IMG/VR virus record: IMGVR_UViG_3300012012_000807
Coordinates: 1 to 31,658 of that record
DNA from: a virus
Length of the DNA: 31,658 bases
Strand: one strand, 5' to 3'
The notes below the pieces were generated by a model. That model made no database searches, was not told the DNA's origin, and worked only from the letters and a program-made list of their open reading frames with translations. This document shows positions 4,297-31,600 of the stretch, piece by piece. The first letter of the stretch is position 1. Each line of letters starts with the position of its first letter. A program made the position numbers and the translations under genes.

Positions 4297-4737
4297 TTAG
4301 CGAAGGGCGGCAGTAAGCCGGTTATAGCCGCGGACCTTATAGGCGGGGGCTAAGGCTAGCCGGTGACTTATCTTAGCGGCTCCGGTAGGGCCAAGGGTCC
4401 AGGCTAGCCAAAGCGAGGCCGAGTTAACGACGACGCGCCGGCGGCGGAGGTCGGCTTCGATAAAGTCGAAATAGGTTCGGGCATAGATCCGAGAAATAGC
4501 GGGGTCGAAGGCCGCGGAGAAGGGGAAGGTTTCGAACCCTTGCGCGCGGCGAAGGCGGGAGGTTTGTTCCCAGGCTATCGGGGTAAACTGGAAAAGGCCG
4601 CGATCGCCGGCGGAGCCGACGGCCTGGGGGTCGCCGCGGGATTCGGCGACGGCGATAGCGTCGAGGAACCGTTCGGAGACGGCTAACGCGGGCGAGGCCG
4701 AGAAAGCGACTAGGGCGAGAATGAGAAGAGGTTTCAT
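4297..4737 (-). CDS. Secreted lysozyme-like transglycosylase (endolysin)
   Basis: Probable peptidoglycan-cleaving enzyme that breaks the glycan chain at lysis or during entry. Residues 1-19 form a Sec-type signal peptide (hydrophobic LLILALVAFSA, ending ALA). The body matches the lytic transglycosylase/lysozyme fold: catalytic Glu32 in AIAVAESRGDP, then DRGLFQFTPIAWEQ near 45-58. At 146 residues it is a minimal, single-domain enzyme with no cell-wall-binding module. It overlaps the SWIM protein gene by four bases and lies in the replication operon, about 6 kb from the holin-like genes, which is unusual for an endolysin. Export by a signal peptide would make it partly independent of the holin. 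A structural, virion-associated role is less likely. Confidence 0.8.
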   Translation of the reverse strand: MKPLLILALVAFSASPALAVSERFLDAIAVAESRGDPQAVGSAGDRGLFQFTPIAWEQTSRLRRAQGFETFPFSAAFDPAISRIYARTYFDFIEADLRRRRVVVNSASLWLAWTLGPTGAAKISHRLALAPAYKVRGYNRLTAALR

Positions 4738-5045
4738 TTTTGGCGGGCCATTTCGTTTAGGACCTTATCCAGGAACCAGGAGCGGGTTAGGAGAATATGC
4801 CGGCAACGCGCGCGATCGGTAGGGCCGACGGTCTTAGCGACTGATTCCTTTCGGAGTCGGAAATCTTCGCACGAGCAAAAGCCGTTAGCACCTAGCGCGC
4901 CGAGGTCGACGAGATGGACTTCCCCAGGTCGCGACGAACTCGGAACGGTGAAGCGGAGCGGCGCGTCGTATTGTTTCGGTATAACCTTTCGCTCCGGCTT
5001 CGGGACGGAGTTAAGGAAATCGTCGTCGGGGTCGTCGAAACTCAT
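4734..5045 (-). CDS. Small SWIM-type zinc-finger protein
   Basis: A 103-residue protein with the SWIM zinc-binding signature C-x-C-x(21)-C-x-H: FCSCEDF near residues 57-63 and ARCRH near 83-87. SWIM domains bind DNA or partner proteins and usually sit in larger proteins such as Rad51 partners or chromatin-type ATPases. Here the domain stands nearly alone, with a short acidic N-terminus (FDDPDDDFLNSVPKPERK). Its gene overlaps the helicase-loader gene upstream and the endolysin gene downstream by four bases each (ATGA). A role in replication or recombination, for example with the loader or the ERF protein, is inferred from the operon. Confidence 0.75.
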   Translation of the reverse strand: MSFDDPDDDFLNSVPKPERKVIPKQYDAPLRFTVPSSSRPGEVHLVDLGALGANGFCSCEDFRLRKESVAKTVGPTDRARCRHILLTRSWFLDKVLNEMARQK

Positions 5046-5734
5046 TTCTGATTAACCAGGCTAACGGAGCGGAAGAACTCGCGGAGGCGGGCGACTAGGG
5101 CCGCGGCAAGTTCGGGGTTCGGGTTGTCCTTAGACGCGCTCGAAAGCCTTTCCTCTAGGACTGATCCGATTAGGTTCGTCGTTAATATCGTCGGTCGGCG
5201 GTTTGAAGTCCGCTCGTCGATAAGGGCGAAAAAGTCGGAAGCGAACCGTTCGGAAATCTTCCCGCCGTTGCCTAGGTCGTCAAACACTAGGAACGGAGCC
5301 GAAACCAGTTCGTCCAGGTAGTCCGAATGTCGGCGATCGCGGAAGGCCTTTTCGACTTGGCCCGCAAATCCGCGCATCGTTAGGAATGTCGGCGGGAGGC
5401 CGTAGACTTCGACGAACTTCTTAGCGATAAGGAAGGCCGCGCGGGTTTTACCGGTCCGGGTTTCGCCGAAGAGAATAACGGACTGCCGCGAGCGGGGATC
5501 GTAGCCGTCGACTAGGCCTCGGAGTTTATCGCAAAGCCTAGCGGGGTCGGTTTCCCTAATCACTTCGGGGAAGGAGTCGAGATAGCCGGCTAACTTCACG
5601 GCCTTAGCCGCGTTCGCTTTAATCTGGGACTCGGACTTTTCCTCGGCCTCCCGCATAGCGTAGGCGCAAGGGTTGCAAACGCCGCGGGGGTGAAGCGCGG
5701 TCGTCGGGCTGTCGCATTTAGGGCATTGAAGCAT
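5042..5734 (-). CDS. DnaC/IstB-like AAA+ helicase loader
   Basis: ATPase that probably loads the host replicative helicase onto the phage origin. Residues 4-23 form an N-terminal zinc ribbon (C4-x2-C7-x12-C20-x2-C23), followed by a helical linker. The AAA+ core has Walker A GETRTGKT at 90-97, Walker B FLVFDDLG at 148-155 and a sensor-1-like ILTTN at 183-187. The size, 230 residues, fits the DnaC/IstB class. No helicase gene is present in the window, so the host DnaB is the expected client. It is coupled to the winged-helix gene upstream (TAATG) and the SWIM gene downstream (ATGA). An IstB transposition role is excluded by the absence of any IstA-like gene. Confidence 0.85.
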   Translation of the reverse strand: MLQCPKCDSPTTALHPRGVCNPCAYAMREAEEKSESQIKANAAKAVKLAGYLDSFPEVIRETDPARLCDKLRGLVDGYDPRSRQSVILFGETRTGKTRAAFLIAKKFVEVYGLPPTFLTMRGFAGQVEKAFRDRRHSDYLDELVSAPFLVFDDLGNGGKISERFASDFFALIDERTSNRRPTILTTNLIGSVLEERLSSASKDNPNPELAAALVARLREFFRSVSLVNQK

Positions 5735-6237
5735 TAGAAACCCCCTTCGTAATCTTCACGAGTTAACCGCGCTCGCGCGGCCTTCGCTGACCGACCCGAC
5801 CGAGGGGGAGGGGTAGGGGTAGGGTTAGGTTTTATCATCTCGTTATATCTGGCGGACATTTTTGTCCGGGGGGGGAGGACATTTTTGTCCGGGGGGGAGG
5901 GTCGGAAGTCGTCGATAGAAACCGCGATATTTAGCCGGCGGTTAACAAGCGCGTCGGAGGTCGCCGTCCGAATCTTTCGGCGATCGCCTTTAACGCGGAC
6001 CAGGTAGCCGAGACGCTCCAAGATTTGGAGTTCGCGGCGGACCGTCCGAGGATCGCGGGAGACGATGCGGGCGAGGTAGGCATTTGAGCCGAAACAACCG
6101 CGTTGAGATTGGGCGAGGCAGTCGACGATTCCGAAGATAATTTTAGCCGTATTGGTTAGGCTAATATTTTCCAACAGTTCGCGAGGGATCCAAACGCCGG
6201 AAAACTCCGGCGGGATAGGGCGGGGTTCGGTTCCCAT
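5734..6237 (-). CDS. Winged-helix replication initiator-like protein
   Basis: Probable replication initiator of the lambda O or phage DnaD-like kind. Residues ~10-85 form a winged helix: TNTAKIIFGIVDCLAQSQRG, then SNAYLARIVSRDPRTVRREL and LERLGYLVRVKGDRR as recognition helix and wing. The C-terminal half is disordered, Pro-rich and basic (PNPTPTPPPRS), ending EDYEGGF. The DNA for this linker carries two copies of a 14-bp inverted repeat in different reading frames plus G tracts, the arrangement expected of an origin inside the initiator gene. It is followed at once by the helicase loader (TAATG overlap), the same O-then-P order as in lambda. Function is inferred from domain and context. Confidence 0.75.
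   Translation of the reverse strand: MGTEPRPIPPEFSGVWIPRELLENISLTNTAKIIFGIVDCLAQSQRGCFGSNAYLARIVSRDPRTVRRELQILERLGYLVRVKGDRRKIRTATSDALVNRRLNIAVSIDDFRPSPPDKNVLPPRTKMSARYNEMIKPNPTPTPPPRSGRSAKAARARLTREDYEGGF
5804..5899. other. Candidate replication origin inside initiator-like gene
   Basis: On the plus strand 5854-5867 and 5877-5890 are identical copies of GGACATTTTTGTCC, each an inverted repeat (5-bp arms, 4-base loop). They start 23 bases apart and each is followed by a run of 7-8 G. Because 23 is not a multiple of three, the two copies are read in different frames by the gene, so protein conservation cannot explain them. To their left is an AT-richer stretch (5829-5850) and, at 5804-5824, four G runs (5, 4, 4 and 3 G) separated by 1-2 bases, a G-quadruplex motif. 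The set resembles the lambdoid ori within the O gene. Only two iterons are present, fewer than lambda's four. Confidence 0.55.
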
Positions 6238-6974
6238 TATTCCAGGGGTTCGGAGCGGTTAGCGGCCTGGGCAAGTCCCATTCGGTAGGCGACGCGGCAA
6301 GTCAGTTCCAGGTCCTTCCGAAGGTAGGCGATAGCCGCTTCGGGGTTGCTAGCAAGGTCGGAAGCAAAGTCCGCTCCGGAGCCGGACTTGCCTTCGCCGG
6401 TGAGCGCGCGGGCCACCGTGTCGAGATTGGAGCGACCAGAGTTTCGGCCTAGAATCCAAAGGTCGCGGAGGTCGTAGAAGGCCGAGGACCAGTTCGGGAA
6501 CCGTCCGCGGAGTTCGAAAACGGCGGGAGGAACACTAACCGAGTTAACCCAGGAACGCGCGACTAGGAACGGCAAGTCAAACTCGCGAGAGTTGAAGCCG
6601 ACGAATAGGGTTCGGTCGGTCTTACCGGTGAGGGAGTCCGAGACGATGCGCCAAAAGGAATTGAGGACTTCGCGTTCGTCGCCGGTGAGGGCGTAGAAGT
6701 CGCAAGCCTTGCCGTCGTCGCCGATGTAGGCTAGGCCGATCGCGAGGACCTTCCCAGATTCGGGAGCAAGGGCGGCGTTCGAAACAAAGGTCGAACGGTG
6801 CGAGGCTTCGGCCTGGGTAATCTTCGCCGCGATCAAAGCGGGGTCCTTCATATTCCCGACCTTAACCTCGGAGGGGTCGAAGGGCGGGATTAGCGACTCG
6901 ATACCGTCGGCGGGGCCGGTTTCGATATCGAAGGCGAGGAACTGGGGTCGGTAGTTTGTGGGGGCTGGTTTCAT
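6237..6974 (-). CDS. DnaQ/PolB-like 3'-5' exonuclease
   Basis: Probable DEDD-family DNA exonuclease acting in replication proofreading, end processing or recombination. Exo I is FDIET (Asp16, Glu18). Exo II lies in FVGFNSREFDLPFL (Asn127, Asp133). A further acidic block is YDLRDLW near 167-173. Exo III has Tyr217-x3-Asp221 in YLRKDLEL, so it is the DEDDy subtype. The protein has no polymerase domain: 245 residues cover the exonuclease fold only, resembling stand-alone PolB-exonuclease-like proteins. It heads the tightly overlapping cassette of exonuclease, initiator, loader, SWIM protein and endolysin, and begins with the CCCACAAATG start context. It may resect DNA for the ERF protein. Confidence 0.85.
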   Translation of the reverse strand: MKPAPTNYRPQFLAFDIETGPADGIESLIPPFDPSEVKVGNMKDPALIAAKITQAEASHRSTFVSNAALAPESGKVLAIGLAYIGDDGKACDFYALTGDEREVLNSFWRIVSDSLTGKTDRTLFVGFNSREFDLPFLVARSWVNSVSVPPAVFELRGRFPNWSSAFYDLRDLWILGRNSGRSNLDTVARALTGEGKSGSGADFASDLASNPEAAIAYLRKDLELTCRVAYRMGLAQAANRSEPLE

Positions 6975-7010
6975 TTGTGGGCGGTTTTGGGTTAGGGAGA
7001 GGGGGAAGGC

Positions 7011-7250
7011 CTAGGCCGACTTGCCGGCGGCGGTTGTAGCCTCGGCTAGGCGGTTAGGAAAGGGGTCGAGTCCGCGGTCGGAGACGCGGTTTACCCCTTG
7101 GTTAATCAGAATCCGAATTGCGTCGGTTCGGGAGACGCGGAGGGAACGCGAGAGTTCCCAAACGGCTTGGGCGATTTCGGAGTCGAGGCGAACGGTAATC
7201 GCGAACGGCTTAACTTCGGGGGTTGCGGGAGGGAGTTGGGCTTTTGGCAT
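7011..7250 (-). CDS. Ribbon-helix-helix DNA-binding protein
   Basis: A 79-residue probable transcriptional repressor of the ribbon-helix-helix type. Residues ~15-52 contain the family pattern: a short strand FAITVRLD, helix A SEIAQAVWELSRSL, a turn RVSRTDAIRILINQG with helix B. Flanking segments are short and disordered. RHH proteins bind as dimers to operator pairs and often repress their own operon. The palindromic clusters upstream at 10296-10447 are candidate targets, but that link is inference. It lies 36 bases upstream of the exonuclease gene. No toxin gene is next to it, so an antitoxin role is unlikely. Confidence 0.75.
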   Translation of the reverse strand: MPKAQLPPATPEVKPFAITVRLDSEIAQAVWELSRSLRVSRTDAIRILINQGVNRVSDRGLDPFPNRLAEATTAAGKSA

Positions 7251-7259
7251 AGGGAAAAG

Positions 7260-7913
7260 TTAGGAGTGAAGGTCGATAATAAACCCGCGCGTCGGCGCGA
7301 GGAGTCGCGGAGCGTAGGACTTAAAGTCGCGGGAAAGGGAAAGGTCGCGGGCCGCCGAGTCGATTGCGTCGCCGATCGCCTGGTCGACGCAAGCCGGCAG
7401 GACTTGCAAGCCTGGGAAGGCTAGGGGTTCCGAGGCCGGCGCGAGATAGGGGATACCGAGGGAAAGGTCGAAGGTTCGACCGTCGAACTTGTTATCGGGG
7501 GCGAGGTGCTTTCCGACGCGCTCGATAGCGGCGACGGTTCGGCGGGCGGAAATCGAGCGCATAACCGAAAGGAGGGAATCTTCGGTTTCGCCGTCGTTAT
7601 ACCGGGAGAAAACAAGCGCGTCGTTTAGGTCGTCGATAGCCTTATCGGTTAGGTCGATTGCCTCGGCTAAGTGGCGGGCGATTCGCGCGCCGTGTTTGTT
7701 AGCCTCTTCGGAAGGAATGTCGAACCGCTCGACGACGCGGAAGCCGTCCCAGTCGTTAAGGAAACCGTTTCGCTTCGTCCAATAGGGAAGGGAAGAGGAG
7801 GCCTTGAGCGCGGAGGAGAGTTCGGTTTCAACCCAGGACTCCGCGATCGTGGCGGAGAGGGGTTCGGGCCTTGCGATAGACGGAGCAAGGCAAACGATTA
7901 TTTGCGTTTTCAT
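7260..7913 (-). CDS. Hypothetical protein, 217 aa
   Basis: Unrecognised. The sequence looks globular and mixed alpha/beta, beginning MKTQIIVCLAPSIARP and containing a helical middle (HLAEAIDLTDKAIDDLNDAL near residues 80-99). No catalytic motif, zinc ligands, signal peptide or membrane segment is evident. It starts after a CCCACAAATG context, shared with the exonuclease, ERF and other early genes. It lies between the RusA resolvase (16 bases upstream) and the RHH protein. Being in a DNA-metabolism block suggests a nucleic-acid role, for example a nuclease accessory or host-takeover factor, without direct support. Confidence 0.7.
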   Translation of the reverse strand: MKTQIIVCLAPSIARPEPLSATIAESWVETELSSALKASSSLPYWTKRNGFLNDWDGFRVVERFDIPSEEANKHGARIARHLAEAIDLTDKAIDDLNDALVFSRYNDGETEDSLLSVMRSISARRTVAAIERVGKHLAPDNKFDGRTFDLSLGIPYLAPASEPLAFPGLQVLPACVDQAIGDAIDSAARDLSLSRDFKSYAPRLLAPTRGFIIDLHS

Positions 7914-7929
7914 TTGTGGGGTCGGCGGG

Positions 7930-8379
7930 TTATTCCGACCGCGTTAGACTCGCCGCGGTTGCGCGGATTTCAAGCCTAGGATTCGAAGAGTTTAATTTAA
8001 CGACGGTCAAATGAGCGACGCGCTGATCGGCAGGAATCACCGAACATTCCGCGAGGAGGTCGATAATAGCCTTAGCCAGGTTGTCCGCGTCGGGCTTCGT
8101 CGTCCGGTAGGCTTCGCCGGCGGCGGCGGCCTTAGAGGTTCCCGCGGGCCAAGGGTAAGCGACGACTAGGTTAAGCGAGACGGCCTTCGCTTGCCGGACT
8201 TCAAAAGCGGCTTGCGTAAGCGAAGCGACGCGGAGCCGGTGTTCGACTTGCCGGAGAAAGCGGGACCAGTCCGCGGGGATCTTCTTATAAAACCGCGGGC
8301 CGCGTTTCGTCATAGCCGCGCGGGTTCGCGATTGGCTAGTCGACCGCGGCGGGGTGCAAGGGATATTTAGGCAGAGCAT
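7930..8379 (-). CDS. rusA: RusA-family Holliday junction resolvase
   Basis: Endonuclease that cuts four-way DNA junctions formed during recombination, tidying branched DNA before packaging. Residues 95-107 carry the signature KPDADNLAKAIID with Asp97, Asp99, Lys103 and Asp107, and Asp118 follows in IPADQRV. The N-terminus (LNIPCTPPRSTSQSR) fits the start of the family, so the first ATG is preferred over Met23. The C-terminus is a beta-strand-type segment (LTVVKLNSSNPRLEIRA). At 149 residues it is slightly longer than E. coli RusA. Its ATG overlaps the upstream stop as TAATG. It belongs with the ERF protein and the exonuclease in a recombination set. Confidence 0.88.
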   Translation of the reverse strand: MLCLNIPCTPPRSTSQSRTRAAMTKRGPRFYKKIPADWSRFLRQVEHRLRVASLTQAAFEVRQAKAVSLNLVVAYPWPAGTSKAAAAGEAYRTTKPDADNLAKAIIDLLAECSVIPADQRVAHLTVVKLNSSNPRLEIRATAASLTRSE

Positions 8380-8720
8380 TAGTTAAGGACCCAGGCTAGG
8401 GAGTGTCCGAGGATTGCGGGGGCTTGGTCGTCGACCGTTAGGGATAGAAACCGCCCAGGATTATTTTCGTCGTCGATCCAGGAAACGCCGTCGAGGACTT
8501 CGCCGGTTAGCGTGTCGAGAACGATAGGCCTAGCGACGGCGCGCCAGAACTCGCGCAAAGCCTCCGCCGATTTAAACACCGGTTCAAGGTCGGTCGTCGG
8601 GTTAGCCTGGAACGCTAGCAAGGTCGTTGCCGCGTCGCGGGTTCGGCGAGACATTTTCGACTGATAGAATCGGGCGACGGTGTAGGCCGCGACCGGCTTA
8701 ACTGGGACTAGGGTTGGCAT
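8379..8720 (-). CDS. Hypothetical protein, 113 aa
   Basis: Unrecognised. The N-terminal half is basic and helical (YTVARFYQSKMSRRTRDAA near 13-31), and the C-terminal half is acidic with beta-type segments (VSWIDDENNPGRFLSLTVDD), ending in LGHSLAWVLN. It has no membrane segment or zinc motif. It is three bases after a 35-codon membrane-peptide gene and overlaps RusA by one base, so it is part of the same translationally linked run. It may be an accessory of the resolvase, but this is only a positional guess. Confidence 0.65.
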   Translation of the reverse strand: MPTLVPVKPVAAYTVARFYQSKMSRRTRDAATTLLAFQANPTTDLEPVFKSAEALREFWRAVARPIVLDTLTGEVLDGVSWIDDENNPGRFLSLTVDDQAPAILGHSLAWVLN

Positions 8721-8723
8721 CGG

Positions 8724-8831
8724 TTAGAACTTAGGGTTATCGATAATCTCGAAGAGGGAAGGGCCGGAGCCTAGCGCGTAGATCGCGAAGGCGAGGCCGG
8801 CGGCGAGGAGAAGGAAGAGAAGGGTTCGCAT
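8724..8831 (-). CDS. Small single-span membrane peptide, 35 aa
   Basis: A 35-codon gene from ATG at 8831-8829 to TAA at 8726-8724. The product starts MRTLLFLLLAAGLAFAIYAL, one transmembrane helix or uncleaved signal anchor with an Arg at position 2, then a short polar tail GSGPSLFEIIDNPKF. It fits neatly between neighbours (10 bases after the upstream gene, 3 before the next). The helix is too regular and the spacing too tight to be chance, but a peptide this size is hard to prove. It could be a small inner-membrane toxin, an exclusion peptide or a lysis regulator. Confidence 0.55.
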   Translation of the reverse strand: MRTLLFLLLAAGLAFAIYALGSGPSLFEIIDNPKF

Positions 8832-8841
8832 CGGTCCAGGC

Positions 8842-9183
8842 TTAGGAGTTAAGAACGGCGTTAATCCGTTCGGCTTCGTTAGCGGTAGCGCGGCGAGGCT
8901 TTACCGGCTTGCCGCTTTGGACGATTGCGCCGGCGCGGTTAACTAGGATTTCGGAGAGGAGGCAAACGGAGCGGACCTTTTCCCAGTTGTTCTTTGCGCG
9001 GAGGTCCTCGGCGTAGGCCGCGCCTAGGTCGACGAGGAACTGCGTCGGGAGTTCGGAGCCGGCGGGAAAGGCCTCGATCTCGTCGCGGAGCGCGCGGAGG
9101 TTAACTTCGGCGAGGTCGAAGCGGGTTCGGGCTTCGGTTCGCTTTGCCTTTAATGCGGCTAAGTTTTCGTCGGTGATTTTCAT
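8842..9183 (-). CDS. Helical hypothetical protein, 113 aa
   Basis: Unrecognised, strongly alpha-helical. The first ~40 residues (LAALKAKRTEARTRFDLAEV and LRALRDEIEAF) look like a coiled coil, followed by a second helical part (AAYAEDLRAKNNWEKV) and a basic tail (KPVKPRRATANEAERI). It begins with an MKIT N-terminus after a leader that resembles, but does not exactly match, the CCACAAATG context. It is separated by 36 bases from the previous gene. No enzymatic or metal-binding motif is visible. Confidence 0.65.
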   Translation of the reverse strand: MKITDENLAALKAKRTEARTRFDLAEVNLRALRDEIEAFPAGSELPTQFLVDLGAAYAEDLRAKNNWEKVRSVCLLSEILVNRAGAIVQSGKPVKPRRATANEAERINAVLNS

Positions 9184-9219
9184 TTGAGCGGGTAGGGTTG
9201 GGTTCGGTTTCGGGTTGGG

Positions 9220-9498
9220 TTAGGAAATCAGTTCGGCGGCAATCTCGTCGGAAGCCGTGTTGCCGTGTTCGAAGTTGGAGCCGAGGCCGAGGCTAGACTC
9301 GAAAGCCATTTCGAGAGAGTCGCGGACGGACTCGGTAAGGACAGCGCGGGCGGCTTCGACCTGGGCGGCGGTAACGCGACCGGCTTTCTCGGCTTTGCGA
9401 TACTTGGCCCAGGTAGCCTTTGCCTTCTTAACCTGGCGAAGCGCGGCGGCTACGCGGTTAAGATCGGCGAGGATTGTTTTGTTTTGTTCGGTTTTCAT
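9220..9498 (-). CDS. Helical basic/acidic hypothetical protein, 92 aa
   Basis: Unrecognised. The N-terminal two thirds are a charged helical stretch (LNRVAAALRQVKKAKATWAK near 13-32, then AAQVEAARAVLTESVRDSLE), and the end is acidic (TASDEIAAELIS). The gene is directly downstream of one copy of the 70-bp promoter-like element (9531-9600), and its start has the sequence CGATCCACAAATGAAA, shared with the gene at 9927-10205, which follows the other copy. It is therefore probably among the first proteins made after infection. Typical early phage host-takeover proteins look like this, but its function is unknown. Confidence 0.65.
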   Translation of the reverse strand: MKTEQNKTILADLNRVAAALRQVKKAKATWAKYRKAEKAGRVTAAQVEAARAVLTESVRDSLEMAFESSLGLGSNFEHGNTASDEIAAELIS

Positions 9499-9530
9499 TT
9501 GTGGATCGGGTTTAGCGGATTGGGTTAGTT

Positions 9531-12288: not shown

Positions 12289-14691
12289 TTAGGAGGAAAA
12301 GACGGTGCGGGTAGAGAAATAAAGCGCGGGCTGTTGAGAGTTGGTCCCGAAGGTTTCGATTTCCTCTCGAATAACAAAGCCGCCTCCGCTTTGCCCAGAG
12401 TAGCCGGTCGGAGCGGTTGTCGAACCGACCGTCGTTCCGTCAATCTTTAGAGAAAGAGTCGAAGTCGAAGGGTCGAGGATTAGTTCCCAGGCGAACGACC
12501 GTTTAGATCCGGCGAAAAGGGTAGGGTCGGCATAGGATCCGGAGGCCGTTTCGATTAGTCCTCCGCCTACTGTGTCCCCGACAATAAGGTTAATCGGCGC
12601 GGCAGTTCCTCCGGTTGCACCGACAACCCAAGAGAAACCGATTAGGTTTACTAAGCCAACTAAAAGCGAACCAGAGGTCGTCGAATCAATAGAATCAAGG
12701 CCGACTAAGATTCGATAAGTCGAGTTGTCGGCGGTTCCTTCCGCATAACTAGGCGCGTGACATTTGCCGGAGACGCGGAGCGGATTGTTAAAATTAAACG
12801 CTCCGATAACATCGGAATAAATGGGGTCGACATATGTATAACCGAACGCGTGACCGGTAGAGGCTCCCCCATTCGGACCGATTAGAAAGCGAACTCCCGG
12901 GTAAAGAGTTGCTCCGCTTGTTCCGGTTCCCGAATGGTGAATGGCCCAGAAATCGGGACATTCCAATCTAACGACATTCGGATCTGTTGCACCAGTCGAA
13001 GTCGAAATCCCTAAGTTAGCGCGGGCGACTGCGGTATCGGTAAGCGAAGAGAGGTTCGAACCGGTAGCGTCGGAGCCGAGGCCGAGGTTTGTTCGGGCCG
13101 TCGGCGCGTCGGCTAGATCGGAGAGGTTGTTCGCGACCTGGGCAAAGGCCGAAGCCGCTTCGACTGCCGCGGAACCTAGGCCTAGGTTAGTTCGCGCCGT
13201 AGCCGGCAAGGTAAGGTCGGAAAGGTTATTCGCTACTAGGGCGAAATCGACTTCGGAATGTAGCGCGGCGGAGCCGAGGCCGAGGTTCGTTCGGGCCGTT
13301 GACGCGTCGGCTAGGTCGGAGAGGTTCGAAGCCTGGTCGAGGAACAAAGCCGAACCGCCCGACTCCGTTAGAATCGGGTTTCCTGCATTAGGCGAGGCCG
13401 CGGCAAGTAAGGCTAGGCGGGTATTCGCGGGAATAGCCAACCCGCCCGAAGCGATATCGGCTAGGGTAGCGAAAGGGTTAGCCGCGGAAGGGTCGTCGGC
13501 GGCGTGTAGCGCGGCGAGTTCGTCCGAGGTAGGGGCCTCGGCTATCGTCGCATAGATCTCCGCGGCCTCCGCTGAACCTAGGCAGGTATCCCCCTCGACT
13601 GGAACGCAGGTCGCCCCCTCGATAAGGTCCTCGACCAGGCTAGCCGAGATTTGAAGGACCGTCCTAGCGGCTCCGCCGGCGGCGGCGACTTGGACCTCTA
13701 AGACAACCCCGACCGAATCCGCGCCGTCTAGGGTCGTCTCGGCCTCAACCGTCGCGAGGCTTAGGGTCCCGCGTAGGCCGACCGAAGAGGAAAGGCCGGA
13801 GCCGTCGACCGCCCAACCGTCGACCGGTGCGCCGGCTTCGGGAGCGACCGTCGAAGTAATATCGAAAACCGTCGCGGCAATCTGTCGAACCGATACCGCG
13901 CCGGCGGCGGCGAAGTCCTCCCAGGCTTGGAGCGCGTTAAGGAGGTCGCTAGCCGTTAGGTCGTAAGGGAGGAGCGGAGCCGAATAGACGGTCGAAGGAC
14001 CGGCCTCGGTAAAGCCTAGGGTAAAGGTTCCGCCGACGGCCTCCGCGATCGTAAGCCGAACGGTCGAGTTAACGCCGTCCCAGGTTCGGACATTCGTTAG
14101 GGTAGCCGAGGCCGCAGGAACCGCGGTCCAGGAATTGAGCAAGGCAACCGGATTGACTCGGAGCCGAACGACCTGGACCGAAGGAGCCGAGCCGGTTCCG
14201 ACGGTAGATTCGACGACGATAGCCGAGGCCTTCGGAACCAGCGCGTCGGTCGTCGCGGAGATAGCCGTCCGAACGCCGAAAGAGTTAAAGGCAATTCGGT
14301 AGGATTCGCCGACTTGAGCAACCGCAACCCCGCCCGCGGAAACGACCGAGGCTAGGGCATTGAGGGCCGTCGATACCTGGGCGGCGGAAGCATTAAACGA
14401 AAGGGGGGAGGTAGTATTCGCGCCAAAGGTTAGCGAAAAGGTCCCGCTAGTCGGGAGGGTTTCAAGCGATCCAAGCGCAAGAGTCGCCGACGACGACGCG
14501 CCGGCTAGGTCGTCCGTCGAGATTTCGACCGCGGGGAAGTCCGTGTTTCTAGTCAACTCGACCAGGTGAAGGTCAACCGTTAGCGTGTCGCCTAGGACGA
14601 ACCGCGGACGATAGCCGGAAGAGTTCGCGTTAACCCCGCTCAAAAGTTGGTTGCCGGCGAAGTCGACGAAGAGTTTTAGGTCGGAGGACAT
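12289..14691 (-). CDS. Tail fibre / receptor-binding protein 2
   Basis: An 800-residue probable fibre. The N-terminal ~330 residues are paralogous to the fibre at 14919-17186: shared LLSGVNAN near residue 16, GDTLTVDLHLV, AxVxxALNxLxSxVSAGG, and a later domain starting WDG-NSTVRLTIAEA. The centre has repeats of about 33 residues around TARTNLGLGSAA (three full, one decayed with VARANLGI), typical of trimeric phage fibres. The C-terminal ~240 residues differ entirely from fibre 1 and look like a beta-rich, lectin-like head (DPSTSTLSLKIDGTTVGS near the end). The N-terminus probably attaches to the baseplate while the C-terminus binds the host surface. No chaperone is obvious downstream. Confidence 0.8.
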   Translation of the reverse strand: MSSDLKLFVDFAGNQLLSGVNANSSGYRPRFVLGDTLTVDLHLVELTRNTDFPAVEISTDDLAGASSSATLALGSLETLPTSGTFSLTFGANTTSPLSFNASAAQVSTALNALASVVSAGGVAVAQVGESYRIAFNSFGVRTAISATTDALVPKASAIVVESTVGTGSAPSVQVVRLRVNPVALLNSWTAVPAASATLTNVRTWDGVNSTVRLTIAEAVGGTFTLGFTEAGPSTVYSAPLLPYDLTASDLLNALQAWEDFAAAGAVSVRQIAATVFDITSTVAPEAGAPVDGWAVDGSGLSSSVGLRGTLSLATVEAETTLDGADSVGVVLEVQVAAAGGAARTVLQISASLVEDLIEGATCVPVEGDTCLGSAEAAEIYATIAEAPTSDELAALHAADDPSAANPFATLADIASGGLAIPANTRLALLAAASPNAGNPILTESGGSALFLDQASNLSDLADASTARTNLGLGSAALHSEVDFALVANNLSDLTLPATARTNLGLGSAAVEAASAFAQVANNLSDLADAPTARTNLGLGSDATGSNLSSLTDTAVARANLGISTSTGATDPNVVRLECPDFWAIHHSGTGTSGATLYPGVRFLIGPNGGASTGHAFGYTYVDPIYSDVIGAFNFNNPLRVSGKCHAPSYAEGTADNSTYRILVGLDSIDSTTSGSLLVGLVNLIGFSWVVGATGGTAAPINLIVGDTVGGGLIETASGSYADPTLFAGSKRSFAWELILDPSTSTLSLKIDGTTVGSTTAPTGYSGQSGGGFVIREEIETFGTNSQQPALYFSTRTVFSS

Positions 14692-14918: not shown

Positions 14919-17186
14919 TTAGAGGCCGAAATAGGTTCGGGGCTGAATCATACAGATTGTATTTCCGCTAGCCGTGGCCCCGGTAAGAATAGTAGCCCCG
15001 ATGTTTACACTATTGTTAGTCGTCGAAACTCCGACCGGCCCATCGGTGACAGTAATAACAAGGCCGTTTTGAACATTAGAATAAGCGAAGAGTTTAATCG
15101 TGCCGGTTCCGTCCGAGTATAAAATCCAAGCGCTATTCGCAAAGATATTGTTCGCTTGATTGGTGTTAAAACTGACATAGCCGGAAGCCTTTTGCGTTGT
15201 TCCGTCGTGATAGATAATTCGGATTCGTGCTTCCTGGGCGGCGGTCGTGTTAATGTGAATCGCCATTCCTTTATCGGTGAATGTCCCCACAAACTGAGCC
15301 GGATAGGGAAGCCCGATTCCACACCAGTAGTCGACATTTGCGTTGATGCCGTTTCCTCCATCGTTAAACGCGGAAGAGATAGCAATTCTTCGGGACCAGT
15401 TTAGACGGTATCTAGCAAGGGCCGCGTTTCCGTAATACTGCGGAACATAGCCAGTCACCGAGGTTGATTTGCTTGTGTATATTGACGCGCGAGAATTGGC
15501 AACAGAGGCCGAAGTTACTAGGTTGTGAATATTCGGAGCGTAAACCGAAGTCGCCGCTATCCCGCTATTTGCTACATTGGTAGTCCAAGCCGTGTTCGGG
15601 TGATCATACCAGGTAAAGTCTGGAATGTCCGCGTAGAGTTCAAGCCAGGCCTCTCCTTTTCGAACATAGGCTTTAGAGTTTGAGGGGGCATCGTTTACGA
15701 CCGACATAGTTCCGAGGCCTAGGTTTGCTCGCGCAGTCGGGGACGACGCAAGGCCGCTAAGGTTGCCGGCCTTCGTTAGGTAGTTCGTCGCCGTTTCGGT
15801 TGCCATCGTTCCCAGGCCTAGGTTCGTCCGCGCGGTCGGGGTCGACGCGAGGCCGGCGAGGTTGTCGGCTTTAGCCAGGTAATCCGCCGCCGTTTCGGTT
15901 GCCATCGTTCCCAGGCCTAGGTTCGTCCGCGCGGTCGGGGTCGACGCGAGGCCGGCAAGGTTGCCGGACTTCGCTAGGTAATCCGCCGCCGCCGCGGTTG
16001 CCATCGTTCCCAGGCCTAGGTTCGTCCTAGCCGTCGGAGCCGATGCAAGGGAGGCTAGGTTATCGGCTTTTGCTAGGTAGATAGCCGCGGCTTCCGCCGA
16101 ACCTAGCGCGTCGTCGAGTGTAACCGGAGCGAGGGGGCCGTTATCTACCAGGTCGGAGAGAAGGCTTGCCGTCCCCTGGTAAGCCGTGAAATAGCGCGCG
16201 CCGCCGATAGCCTCGACTTCGATAGCGACCTCGACCGATTCCGCGCCGTCGAGGAGGGTTTCGGCTTCGACCGTGTTAAAGTCTAGGTCGCCGACTAAGC
16301 CGACGAACGAATCGAGGCCGGAGCCGTCGACCGTCCAACCCGCTTGCCCAACTGCGAAGGGTTCGACTGGGGTTGAAATGTCGAAGATTCCGACTCCGAT
16401 TTGACGAACGGAAATCGTTTCGGTTAGGGCCGAACTATTGACGAAGCCGGCAAGGGTCGAGCCGGAGGAGTCGAAGGGGATAAGGCTAAAGGGATAGGTC
16501 GTTCCAGCGTCCGACTTAAAGGCTAGGTTAAACGAACCTCCGCGGGCTTCCGCGATCGTAAGGCGAACCGTCGAGTTGGTTCCGTCCCAGGCCGCGACTG
16601 TTTGGAGGCTAGCCGAAGCGGATGGAACGGCGGTCCAGGTCGTCGCGAGGGCGACCGGAACTTGACGGATTCGGAAGAGACGCGCTGGACCGCCGGCGGT
16701 AGGGGTCGAGGAAACGACGGTCGAGCGCGGGACTAGGGCGGCAGGGTCGAAGGAAAGTTCGGAAGCGGGGGGCGTGTCGAACTCGACTCGGTAGAACTCG
16801 CCGATCTTAGAGACGGAAACCCCGCCGGCGGAGACGATTGAAGGGAGGTCGTTAAGCGCGGCCTCGACCGTAGCGGCGGAAGCCGTCGCGGGAATAGGGT
16901 CGGAAAGGTCGCCGTCGAACTCGACCTTAAAGGTCCCAGTCGTCGGGGGAGTTTCAAGGGGGCCGACCGCTAGGCTAACCGAAGTCGCCGCGTCCATCCA
17001 GTCCGCGAAGGAAACGGCTTCCGCGGGGAAGGCCGTGTCGCCGGTCAAGCGGACCAGGTGCAACTCTACGCGGGCCGTATCGCCGGCAAAGAACCTAACG
17101 CGGTCGCCGGTTGCGTTAGCGTTAACGCCGGAGAGGAGTCGATTATTAGCGGGGTCGACAAAGAAACGATGCGTCGGGCGGGCCAT
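14919..17186 (-). CDS. Tail fibre / receptor-binding protein 1
   Basis: A 755-residue probable fibre paralogous to the protein at 12289-14691 over its N-terminal ~330 residues (LLSGVNAN, GDTARVELHLV, SIVSAGGVSVSKIGEFYRVE). The centre has four tandem repeats of exactly 33 residues with the core PTARTNLGLGTMAT (DNA 15703-16098, period 99 bases). The C-terminal ~240 residues are unique, Asn/Thr/Ser-rich and aromatic (YVPQYYGNAALARYRLNW), consistent with a receptor-binding tip. The paralogue pair probably gives the phage two adhesion specificities or forms a branched fibre. A glycosyltransferase-like gene lies 10 bases upstream. Confidence 0.8.
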   Translation of the reverse strand: MARPTHRFFVDPANNRLLSGVNANATGDRVRFFAGDTARVELHLVRLTGDTAFPAEAVSFADWMDAATSVSLAVGPLETPPTTGTFKVEFDGDLSDPIPATASAATVEAALNDLPSIVSAGGVSVSKIGEFYRVEFDTPPASELSFDPAALVPRSTVVSSTPTAGGPARLFRIRQVPVALATTWTAVPSASASLQTVAAWDGTNSTVRLTIAEARGGSFNLAFKSDAGTTYPFSLIPFDSSGSTLAGFVNSSALTETISVRQIGVGIFDISTPVEPFAVGQAGWTVDGSGLDSFVGLVGDLDFNTVEAETLLDGAESVEVAIEVEAIGGARYFTAYQGTASLLSDLVDNGPLAPVTLDDALGSAEAAAIYLAKADNLASLASAPTARTNLGLGTMATAAAADYLAKSGNLAGLASTPTARTNLGLGTMATETAADYLAKADNLAGLASTPTARTNLGLGTMATETATNYLTKAGNLSGLASSPTARANLGLGTMSVVNDAPSNSKAYVRKGEAWLELYADIPDFTWYDHPNTAWTTNVANSGIAATSVYAPNIHNLVTSASVANSRASIYTSKSTSVTGYVPQYYGNAALARYRLNWSRRIAISSAFNDGGNGINANVDYWCGIGLPYPAQFVGTFTDKGMAIHINTTAAQEARIRIIYHDGTTQKASGYVSFNTNQANNIFANSAWILYSDGTGTIKLFAYSNVQNGLVITVTDGPVGVSTTNNSVNIGATILTGATASGNTICMIQPRTYFGL
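15703..16098. repeat. Four tandem 99-base repeats in fibre 1
   Basis: The word starting GCCATCGTTCCCAGGCCTAG recurs at 15802, 15901 and 16000, exactly 99 bases apart, with a diverged copy at 15703. Each unit encodes 33 residues of the fibre shaft. The two central copies are almost identical at DNA level, which allows repeat number to change by recombination. Confidence 0.9.
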
Positions 17187-30257: not shown

Positions 30258-31025
30258 TTAACCTTTTGTAATTCCGTCGTCGTCGAGCGCGGGGTCGTCG
30301 GCTTCGCCGTCGTCGTCGGGAGTTCCAATCGGCGCGGAGTTCTCTTCGGTTTCGGGGTCGTCGGGAAGGGTTATCCCGCCGAAGTCCTCGCCGGTGAGGG
30401 ACTGGACCGAGGCCGAGGCCGTGTCGCTTAGTTTCTTTTGAAGGCGGATTCTAGCCTCGCGAAAAGCCTTCATAGCCAGCCCAGGGTTCGAAGGGTTAGC
30501 CAAGGGCGCGACCTCGACCTCTAACCTTTCGAGTTCGGCGACGAGCAAACCGAAAACCTTTCGGAATCTATCTAGGGCGGTCGCCCGCAGGATAAGGGTT
30601 CGCGACGCGATCAGTTCGGCGCGCGCTTCGCGGCGGAGTTTCGCGTAAGTGTTAACCGCTTTGTCCAGGGTATCGGAAGCGGCCTTAACCTTTTGCGGGC
30701 CGAGGTTCTCGCGCATAGCGCGGGCGAGGCCGTTTCGGGCAACGGTAACGATTCGGAGTTGATATTCGACTAGGGTTTCGAGGGAGCCTGGGTCGTTCTT
30801 AGCCTGGGAAGGTTCGGGTTCCGGTGCGGACTCCGCCGCCGCCGGCGACGAACCGCTAGCGGTCGCCCGCTTGTCGGCCCATATTGCCGCGCGACTGGAA
30901 CGACCGTCCCGCCAAGCCTCCGCCGCTTCGACGGATTCCAAGGGCATCCCCTCCTTTATCAGTTGGGAAACGCGGGCGGGGGTAATTCCCCACCGGTCCG
31001 AGAGTTCGTTATTAGTGACCGGCAT
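30258..31025 (-). CDS. Terminase small subunit (Nu1-like)
   Basis: Probable DNA-recognition subunit of the terminase. It starts with an HTH of the Nu1 kind: TNNELSDRWGITPARVSQLI near 4-23, with KEGMPLESVEAAEAWRDGR after it, typical of phage small terminases and MerR-like domains. The middle is helical (VTVARNGLARAMRENLGPQK) and the end is acidic (GTPDDDGEADDPALDDDG), probably contacting the large subunit. It lies two bases before the large subunit gene. The ATG overlaps the upstream ParB-domain gene by one base (TAATG). Confidence 0.8.
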   Translation of the reverse strand: MPVTNNELSDRWGITPARVSQLIKEGMPLESVEAAEAWRDGRSSRAAIWADKRATASGSSPAAAESAPEPEPSQAKNDPGSLETLVEYQLRIVTVARNGLARAMRENLGPQKVKAASDTLDKAVNTYAKLRREARAELIASRTLILRATALDRFRKVFGLLVAELERLEVEVAPLANPSNPGLAMKAFREARIRLQKKLSDTASASVQSLTGEDFGGITLPDDPETEENSAPIGTPDDDGEADDPALDDDGITKG

Positions 31026-31600
31026 TAGAGGGAGTCAGAGTCCAATTCGTAACCGCATTTCGGGCAGGATCGCGGGCCAGTCGAATCCCCTTTGCCTTCG
31101 TCGTCCGCCGGCAAGGGTTCGTCCTCCGCGGCTAACGAGGCGATTTCGTCGTCGGTAAACCCCGCGGCCTCCGACAATTCGGGCGAGGCTTCGCGGACGG
31201 CCTCCAACTCGGAAAGCAATAGATCTTCGTTCCATTCCGCCAACTCCGCTAGGCGGTTGTCGGCGAGAATGTAGGCGCGCGCTTCGTCGTCGCTAAGGTG
31301 CGGAACCATAATCGCGGGAACCGTCCGCAAGCCGACTTGCAAGGCGGCATAGGTTCGACCGTGGCCCGCGAGGAGCCGACCGTCGGGGCGAATAATGACC
31401 GGACTAACGAAACCGAATTGACGGATTGATGTGGCTAACCGCGAGATTTGGTCGGGCGAGTGAACGCGCGCGTTCCTGGGATCGGGGGAAATGTCCGTTA
31501 AGGGGTAGTTCGCGACGAACTTGATTTGATGGGGTAGGGGTTTACCCCCTAGGTCGTCCCCTGGGGGAGGGGGCAAGGCGGGACCGGTAGGGCGAGGCAT
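31025..31600 (-). CDS. ParB-domain protein with C-terminal Cys pair
   Basis: A 191-residue protein with an N-terminal ParB/Srx-like domain: NPRxR-type PDPRNARVHS near 39-48, RPDGRLLAGHGRTYAALQVG near 71-90 and AYILADNRLAELAEWNEDLL. Such domains in phages are usually fused to a DNA methyltransferase; here the protein stops after EAAGFTDDEIASLA and an acidic linker, ending with a single CPKCG pair. There is no methyltransferase in the window. It precedes the small terminase, suggesting a packaging or DNA-nicking role. ParB-type domains may hydrolyse CTP or cut DNA; neither is shown here. Confidence 0.75.
   Translation of the reverse strand: MPRPTGPALPPPPGDDLGGKPLPHQIKFVANYPLTDISPDPRNARVHSPDQISRLATSIRQFGFVSPVIIRPDGRLLAGHGRTYAALQVGLRTVPAIMVPHLSDDEARAYILADNRLAELAEWNEDLLLSELEAVREASPELSEAAGFTDDEIASLAAEDEPLPADDEGKGDSTGPRSCPKCGYELDSDSL

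Follow-up and report, generated by a model that had tools for sequence, protein, structure and literature searches.

The window, that is, the whole stretch of DNA that was analysed, corresponds to the IMG/VR virus record IMGVR_UViG_3300012012_000807 and spans 31,658 bases with a GC content of about 58%. Searches of Rfam and, at the nucleotide level, of phage records gave no match. Two adjacent genes on the minus strand encode a putative replication initiator of 167 amino acids with a winged helix-turn-helix (HTH) domain (5734–6237; PF13730, HTH_36, 2e-07; phrog_270, 1.3e-08) and a DnaC-like AAA+ helicase loader of the IstB family with 230 amino acids (5042–5734; phrog_50, 1.1e-25; PF01695, 1.1e-08). 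The two genes share one base at a TAATG junction, and both Pfam and PHROGs thus bear out the proposal in the first-pass annotation of a winged-helix initiator followed directly by a DnaC-type loader. The neighbouring genes in the cluster were identified with Pfam and PHROGs as coding for an exonuclease-like protein, an ERF annealing protein and a RusA resolvase, which marks the cluster as a tailed-phage replication module; the terminase and a lambda-type portal are encoded at the opposite end of the window. A transglycosylase (SLT) gene is also located within the replication cluster (4297–4737, minus strand), and an exact 13-bp inverted repeat pair, TTCTGATTAACCA, with copies at 5046–5058 and 7099–7111, about 2 kb apart, flanks the loader, initiator and exonuclease genes.

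The initiator scored 31.1 bits against the HTH_36 profile PF13730, for which the cut-off is 25, and is placed by both Pfam and PHROGs with the HTH_36 phage replication initiators (phrog_270 and relatives). It gave no match to the lambda O profile PF04492 (Phage_rep_O), its matches being limited to HTH_36 and O-like PHROGs, nor to the RepA_N profile PF06970, and a sequence search of the PDB with the single initiator protein as query was also negative. The AlphaFold2 model contains a confidently predicted winged helix, with pLDDT values mostly above 90 in the HTH domain and a recognition helix at residues 63–76 (6010–6051, minus strand), which includes R64, R67 and R68. A fold search with this model recovered winged-helix regulators as the nearest solved structures, followed at lower ranks by the N-terminal domains of RepA_N initiators and of DnaD; every one of these matches is weak, with an E-value of 0.002 or worse. 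The RepA_N structures of the pSK41 type, 4pql and 5kbj, were weak matches in both sequence and fold, and the structural resemblance to RepA_N is weak.

About 115 codons into the initiator gene, in the region that encodes a linker modelled at low confidence (pLDDT 54–60), lie two exact copies of the palindromic sequence GGACATTTTTGTCC, at 5877–5890 (the first in the coding direction) and at 5854–5867 (the second). Each copy is a perfect 14-bp dyad, GGACA-AAAA-TGTCC, and we refer to the copies as iterons. Their starts are 23 bp apart, and they are separated by the spacer GGGGGGGGA (5868–5876), which begins with a G8 run (5868–5875), while the 5877–5890 iteron is flanked by a G7-A tract (5891–5898; G7 at 5891–5897). 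The identical repeats, their spacing and the 7–8 G that follow each of them are thus present as first annotated. On the coding (minus) strand the iterons read GGACAAAAATGTCC and are translated in two different frames, as P-D-K-N-V within PPDKNV (5877–5890) and as R-T-K-M-S within PPRTKMS (5854–5867). We scanned the window for dyad pairs with exact 5-nt arms, a loop of 2–6 nt and copies 15–60 bp apart, and the array was the only repeated-dyad pair in the 31.7 kb, as compared to a mean of 0.05 pairs in block shuffles. The array also folds into strong single-strand hairpins (z = -6), a consequence of the dyads being perfect that therefore carries no information on function.

The loader side of the array is occupied by an AT-richer stretch (5828–5853), which had likewise been pointed out in the first-pass annotation and is a candidate unwinding element. 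Its AT content of 62% corresponds to about the 94th–97th percentile among the 26-bp stretches of the window and is moderate for a phage with a GC content of about 58%. The bias is more pronounced in the 58 related initiator genes described below, in which AT content averages 69% in the 50 bp that adjoin the array towards the loader, as compared to 55% at the opposite end of the array and an equal 55% for the gene (loader-side excess, P ~4e-09). Further along is a four-run G-rich motif, G5-A-G4-TA-G4-TA-G3 (5804–5824, plus strand), that could form a G-quadruplex. The motif itself is present as annotated, but in the one close relative found, L001, the corresponding stretch contains just three runs of at least three G, and we rejected the G-quadruplex as a conserved part of the locus since the four-run form is broken there. 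The motif probably lies outside the mechanism considered here.

L001 shares 84% protein identity with the window. We compared 11 kb of the two sequences, the aligned parts of which are about 77% identical at the DNA level, and found that 55 bp over the array (5843–5897), including the spacer and both dyads, are unchanged. This is the longest identical run in the 11 kb, and it covers 17 identical codons with their synonymous positions, a length that is reached in 0.3% of shuffled codon patterns (P = 0.003). The repeats are thus kept in this one close relative. Taken alone, the conservation in L001 may be regarded as modest evidence for selection on the DNA.

We also searched for two copies of GGACAAAAATGTCC within 4–34 bp of each other in other genomes. 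Such tandem copies were found in 64 viral contigs, whereas a control palindrome of the same composition gave 0, and in an additional 33 bacterial-genome contigs from several phyla, many of which are metagenome bins of uncertain assignment. Isolates with tandem copies include Domibacillus enclensis, Paenibacillus daejeonensis and Enterovibrio baiacu. Among the 76 representative open reading frames that carry an array, including those of the window and L001, 60 matched HTH_36 and 58 matched phrog_270, and their alignment has a mean column identity of 7%. Most copies of the dyad fall in the linker region of HTH_36 initiators that have diverged widely from one another. The spacing in the 58 HTH genes is mostly 22–24 bp, and the copies occur in all three frames (95, 35 and 29 copies), which gives the readings DKNV, RTKMS and GQKCP, with frames mixed within 42 of the 58 genes. 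Selection at the protein level can therefore not explain the array, in agreement with the earlier argument that copies read in different frames imply selection on DNA. That the Pro-rich PPDKNV and PPRTKMS motifs were selected as a peptide element of the linker is scarcely credible: frame 2 (DKNV) is indeed the commonest, with 95 of 159 copies, but the two copies in the window encode different peptides, the frame mixing contradicts selection for a peptide, and the identity with L001 is at the DNA level, synonymous positions included.

Because these loci had been picked by their motif, we performed a protein search in which the HTH domain alone served as query. At least two repeated dyads were identified in 29 of 69 relatives of the window type, as compared to 6 of 326 other open reading frames on the same contigs (P ~2e-19), and in 28 of 66 relatives of a second type, as compared to 8 of 198 controls (P ~6e-13). 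In both samples, about 42% of the initiators but only 2–4% of the control genes contain repeated dyads, and the 42% rates are lower bounds because the strict dyad test would miss the imperfect iterons of lambda itself. The arms vary in these samples (GGCAA, GCCGA, TGCGG, GCACA, TTAAAG and others), and the centre is often A-rich. Arms with GGACA are restricted to the window and L001 in the window type, and are present in 5 of 66 relatives of the second type. As judged from these samples, putative palindromic iterons are general in the HTH_36 initiator class, and the sequence of the arms is lineage-specific.

We suggest that the array is very likely the binding core of a phage replication origin. 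Dimers of the 167-residue winged-helix initiator would recognise the two GGACA-AAAA-TGTCC dyads, which lie within the gene for the initiator, and the resulting complex would melt or bend the AT-richer DNA around 5828–5853, at which the DnaC-like loader encoded by the next gene would place the replicative helicase. Comparative evidence gives good support to the original proposal of an origin within the initiator gene on the lambdoid plan, in that the DNA is conserved, the dyads recur across divergent initiators irrespective of frame, and AT-rich flanking DNA and the gene order fit. Several points count against it. The GC skew is positive almost throughout the window and does not switch at the array, and is as such uninformative as a test, GGACA arms are limited to the window and L001 in the closest clade, and the initiator is short and lacks the large C-terminal domain that lambda O has. 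If the assignment is correct, an uncultivated phage gains a specific and testable origin candidate, and the lambda arrangement would extend to many initiators of the HTH_36 class.

Alternatively, the dyads may be operators through which a repressor or the initiator controls the initiator-loader operon or an intragenic promoter. Palindromic 14-bp sites are typical of operators, and in five viral contigs (L011, L015, L027, L041 and L046) a pair of GGACATTTTTGTCC copies, 31 bp apart, is located in an intergenic region about 24–30 bases upstream of a conserved open reading frame of 65 amino acids, in a position that looks like an operator built from the same dyad. The gene on the far side of these pairs encodes an HTH protein, except in L046, where another gene is found. 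The 65-residue protein was considered as HicA-like, which Pfam did not confirm, and the assignment was rejected. An operator nevertheless seems unlikely in the window, where the array is located about 115 codons inside a gene, where no sigma-70-type promoter was found in 5000–9500 and where the scan for promoters and terminators showed no signal near the array that exceeded chance. The location in the linker and the AT-rich flank moreover recur from family to family. Binding of the initiator could still have a regulatory effect in addition to the proposed role at the origin.

The dyads could also be the product of a neutral tandem duplication or a repeat element with no function. The comparison is to a single close relative, and some tandem GGACA dyads are indeed repeat elements. 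In one Clostridia metagenome assembly (L071, L076, L095 and L098), pairs of GGACAAAAATGTCC, 33 bp apart, are found in several unrelated places, embedded in the longer repeat AAACGTCCCCAATGGACA, and look more like a dispersed repeat than like origins. However, with 55 bp unchanged amid about 77% identity, and with dyads in the same type of gene in divergent phages when the control palindrome gave none, we consider this explanation highly improbable for the array in the window. Because the dyad also occurs outside initiator genes, its presence by itself does not identify an origin. In the open literature, the 14-mer, whole or in part, turned up in two unrelated papers only, and in no case was it linked to replication.

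We compared the predicted origin to that of lambda, which has four annotated 18-bp iterons (ATCCCTCAAAACGAGGGA and variants). These are inverted repeats inside gene O, located 20, 24 and 23 bp apart in frames 0, 2, 2 and 1 and followed by DNA with 72% AT. Lambda O binds the inverted-repeat iterons as dimers, and two iterons together with the AT region are sufficient for unwinding (PMC7466680), so that the array in the window corresponds approximately to this minimum. Shared features are dyad iterons in the linker of the initiator, spaced by about two helical turns (23 bp in the window, 20–24 bp in lambda) and in mixed frames, and a loader gene directly after the initiator gene. AT-rich DNA on the loader side, as in lambda, is clear on average in the 58 related genes but only moderate in the window. 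The window differs from lambda in having two rather than four iterons, GGACA arms rather than arms of the CCCTC type, a G8 spacer, an HTH_36 initiator of 167 amino acids as compared to 299 for O, and a DnaC-like AAA+ loader in place of P. The predicted origin plan is thus lambda-like, yet the family of the initiator differs from that of lambda O. The first-pass annotation had described the layout as without precedent, a claim that finds no support since the lambda iterons are likewise inverted repeats in mixed frames; spacers with runs of G or C, for their part, are present in 35 of 71 related arrays.

Similar arrangements are found in plasmids and other phages. In RepA_N plasmids of the pSK41 type, an N-terminal winged helix binds Rep boxes within its own gene, and the origin sequence codes for a linker of the protein (PMC5703833). 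These differ from the window in belonging to another Pfam family and to plasmids, and in having a C-terminal domain that binds primase. In the chimeric initiator of the staphylococcal plasmid pPR9, an N-terminal HTH_36 domain (pfam13730) related to a phage replication protein has, together with the origin region, taken the place of the RepA_N module, and the rep region replicates autonomously as a mini-replicon (PMC5703833), although pPR9 is a plasmid and its C-terminal domain is of the pSK41 type. Among cultured phages, Flavonifractor phage Cormatin and Cellulophaga phage phi39:1 each encode an HTH initiator with three GACA-N4-TGTC dyads in the linker, 21–24 bp apart, but these dyads have an outer base pair other than that in the window, and the next gene encodes a DnaB-type helicase rather than a loader. 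The plan is already known, and the window would represent a further case with a different iteron and a different protein family. What may be new is that a single iteron sequence recurs among divergent phages and may be linked to an arginine in the recognition helix.

With regard to this link, arginine is present at the position of R68 in all 8 members of the second protein-selected family with arms of the GACA type, as compared to 4 of 19 with other arms (P = 2e-04). In all data, the corresponding numbers are 58 of 59 and 5 of 45, with many of these loci chosen by motif and sharing ancestry. A test on the tree identified one independent pair on supported branches, which is too little resolution, and the link is confounded by shared ancestry because this pair is the only one. 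We regard the apparent association between R68 and GACA as a lead, not as a result. It is a reasonable guess, though short of probable, that R68 and neighbouring residues of the HTH_36 recognition helix set the iteron arms and that GGACA-N4-TGTCC is an old variant, widely shared among phages of several bacterial phyla. If such a recognition code is true, the origins of many uncultivated phages would be predictable from their sequences, and the recurring iteron together with the lineage-specific changes of the arms makes both origin prediction and the code directly testable.

Elsewhere in the window, a protein with a ParB-like N-terminal domain is encoded upstream of the terminase genes (31025–31600, minus strand). 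Two related long open reading frames with similar starts (12289–14691 and 14919–17186, minus strand) contain 99-bp tandem repeats that correspond to about 33 amino acids (ARTNLGLG...NLAGLAS), and they probably encode tail-fibre proteins.
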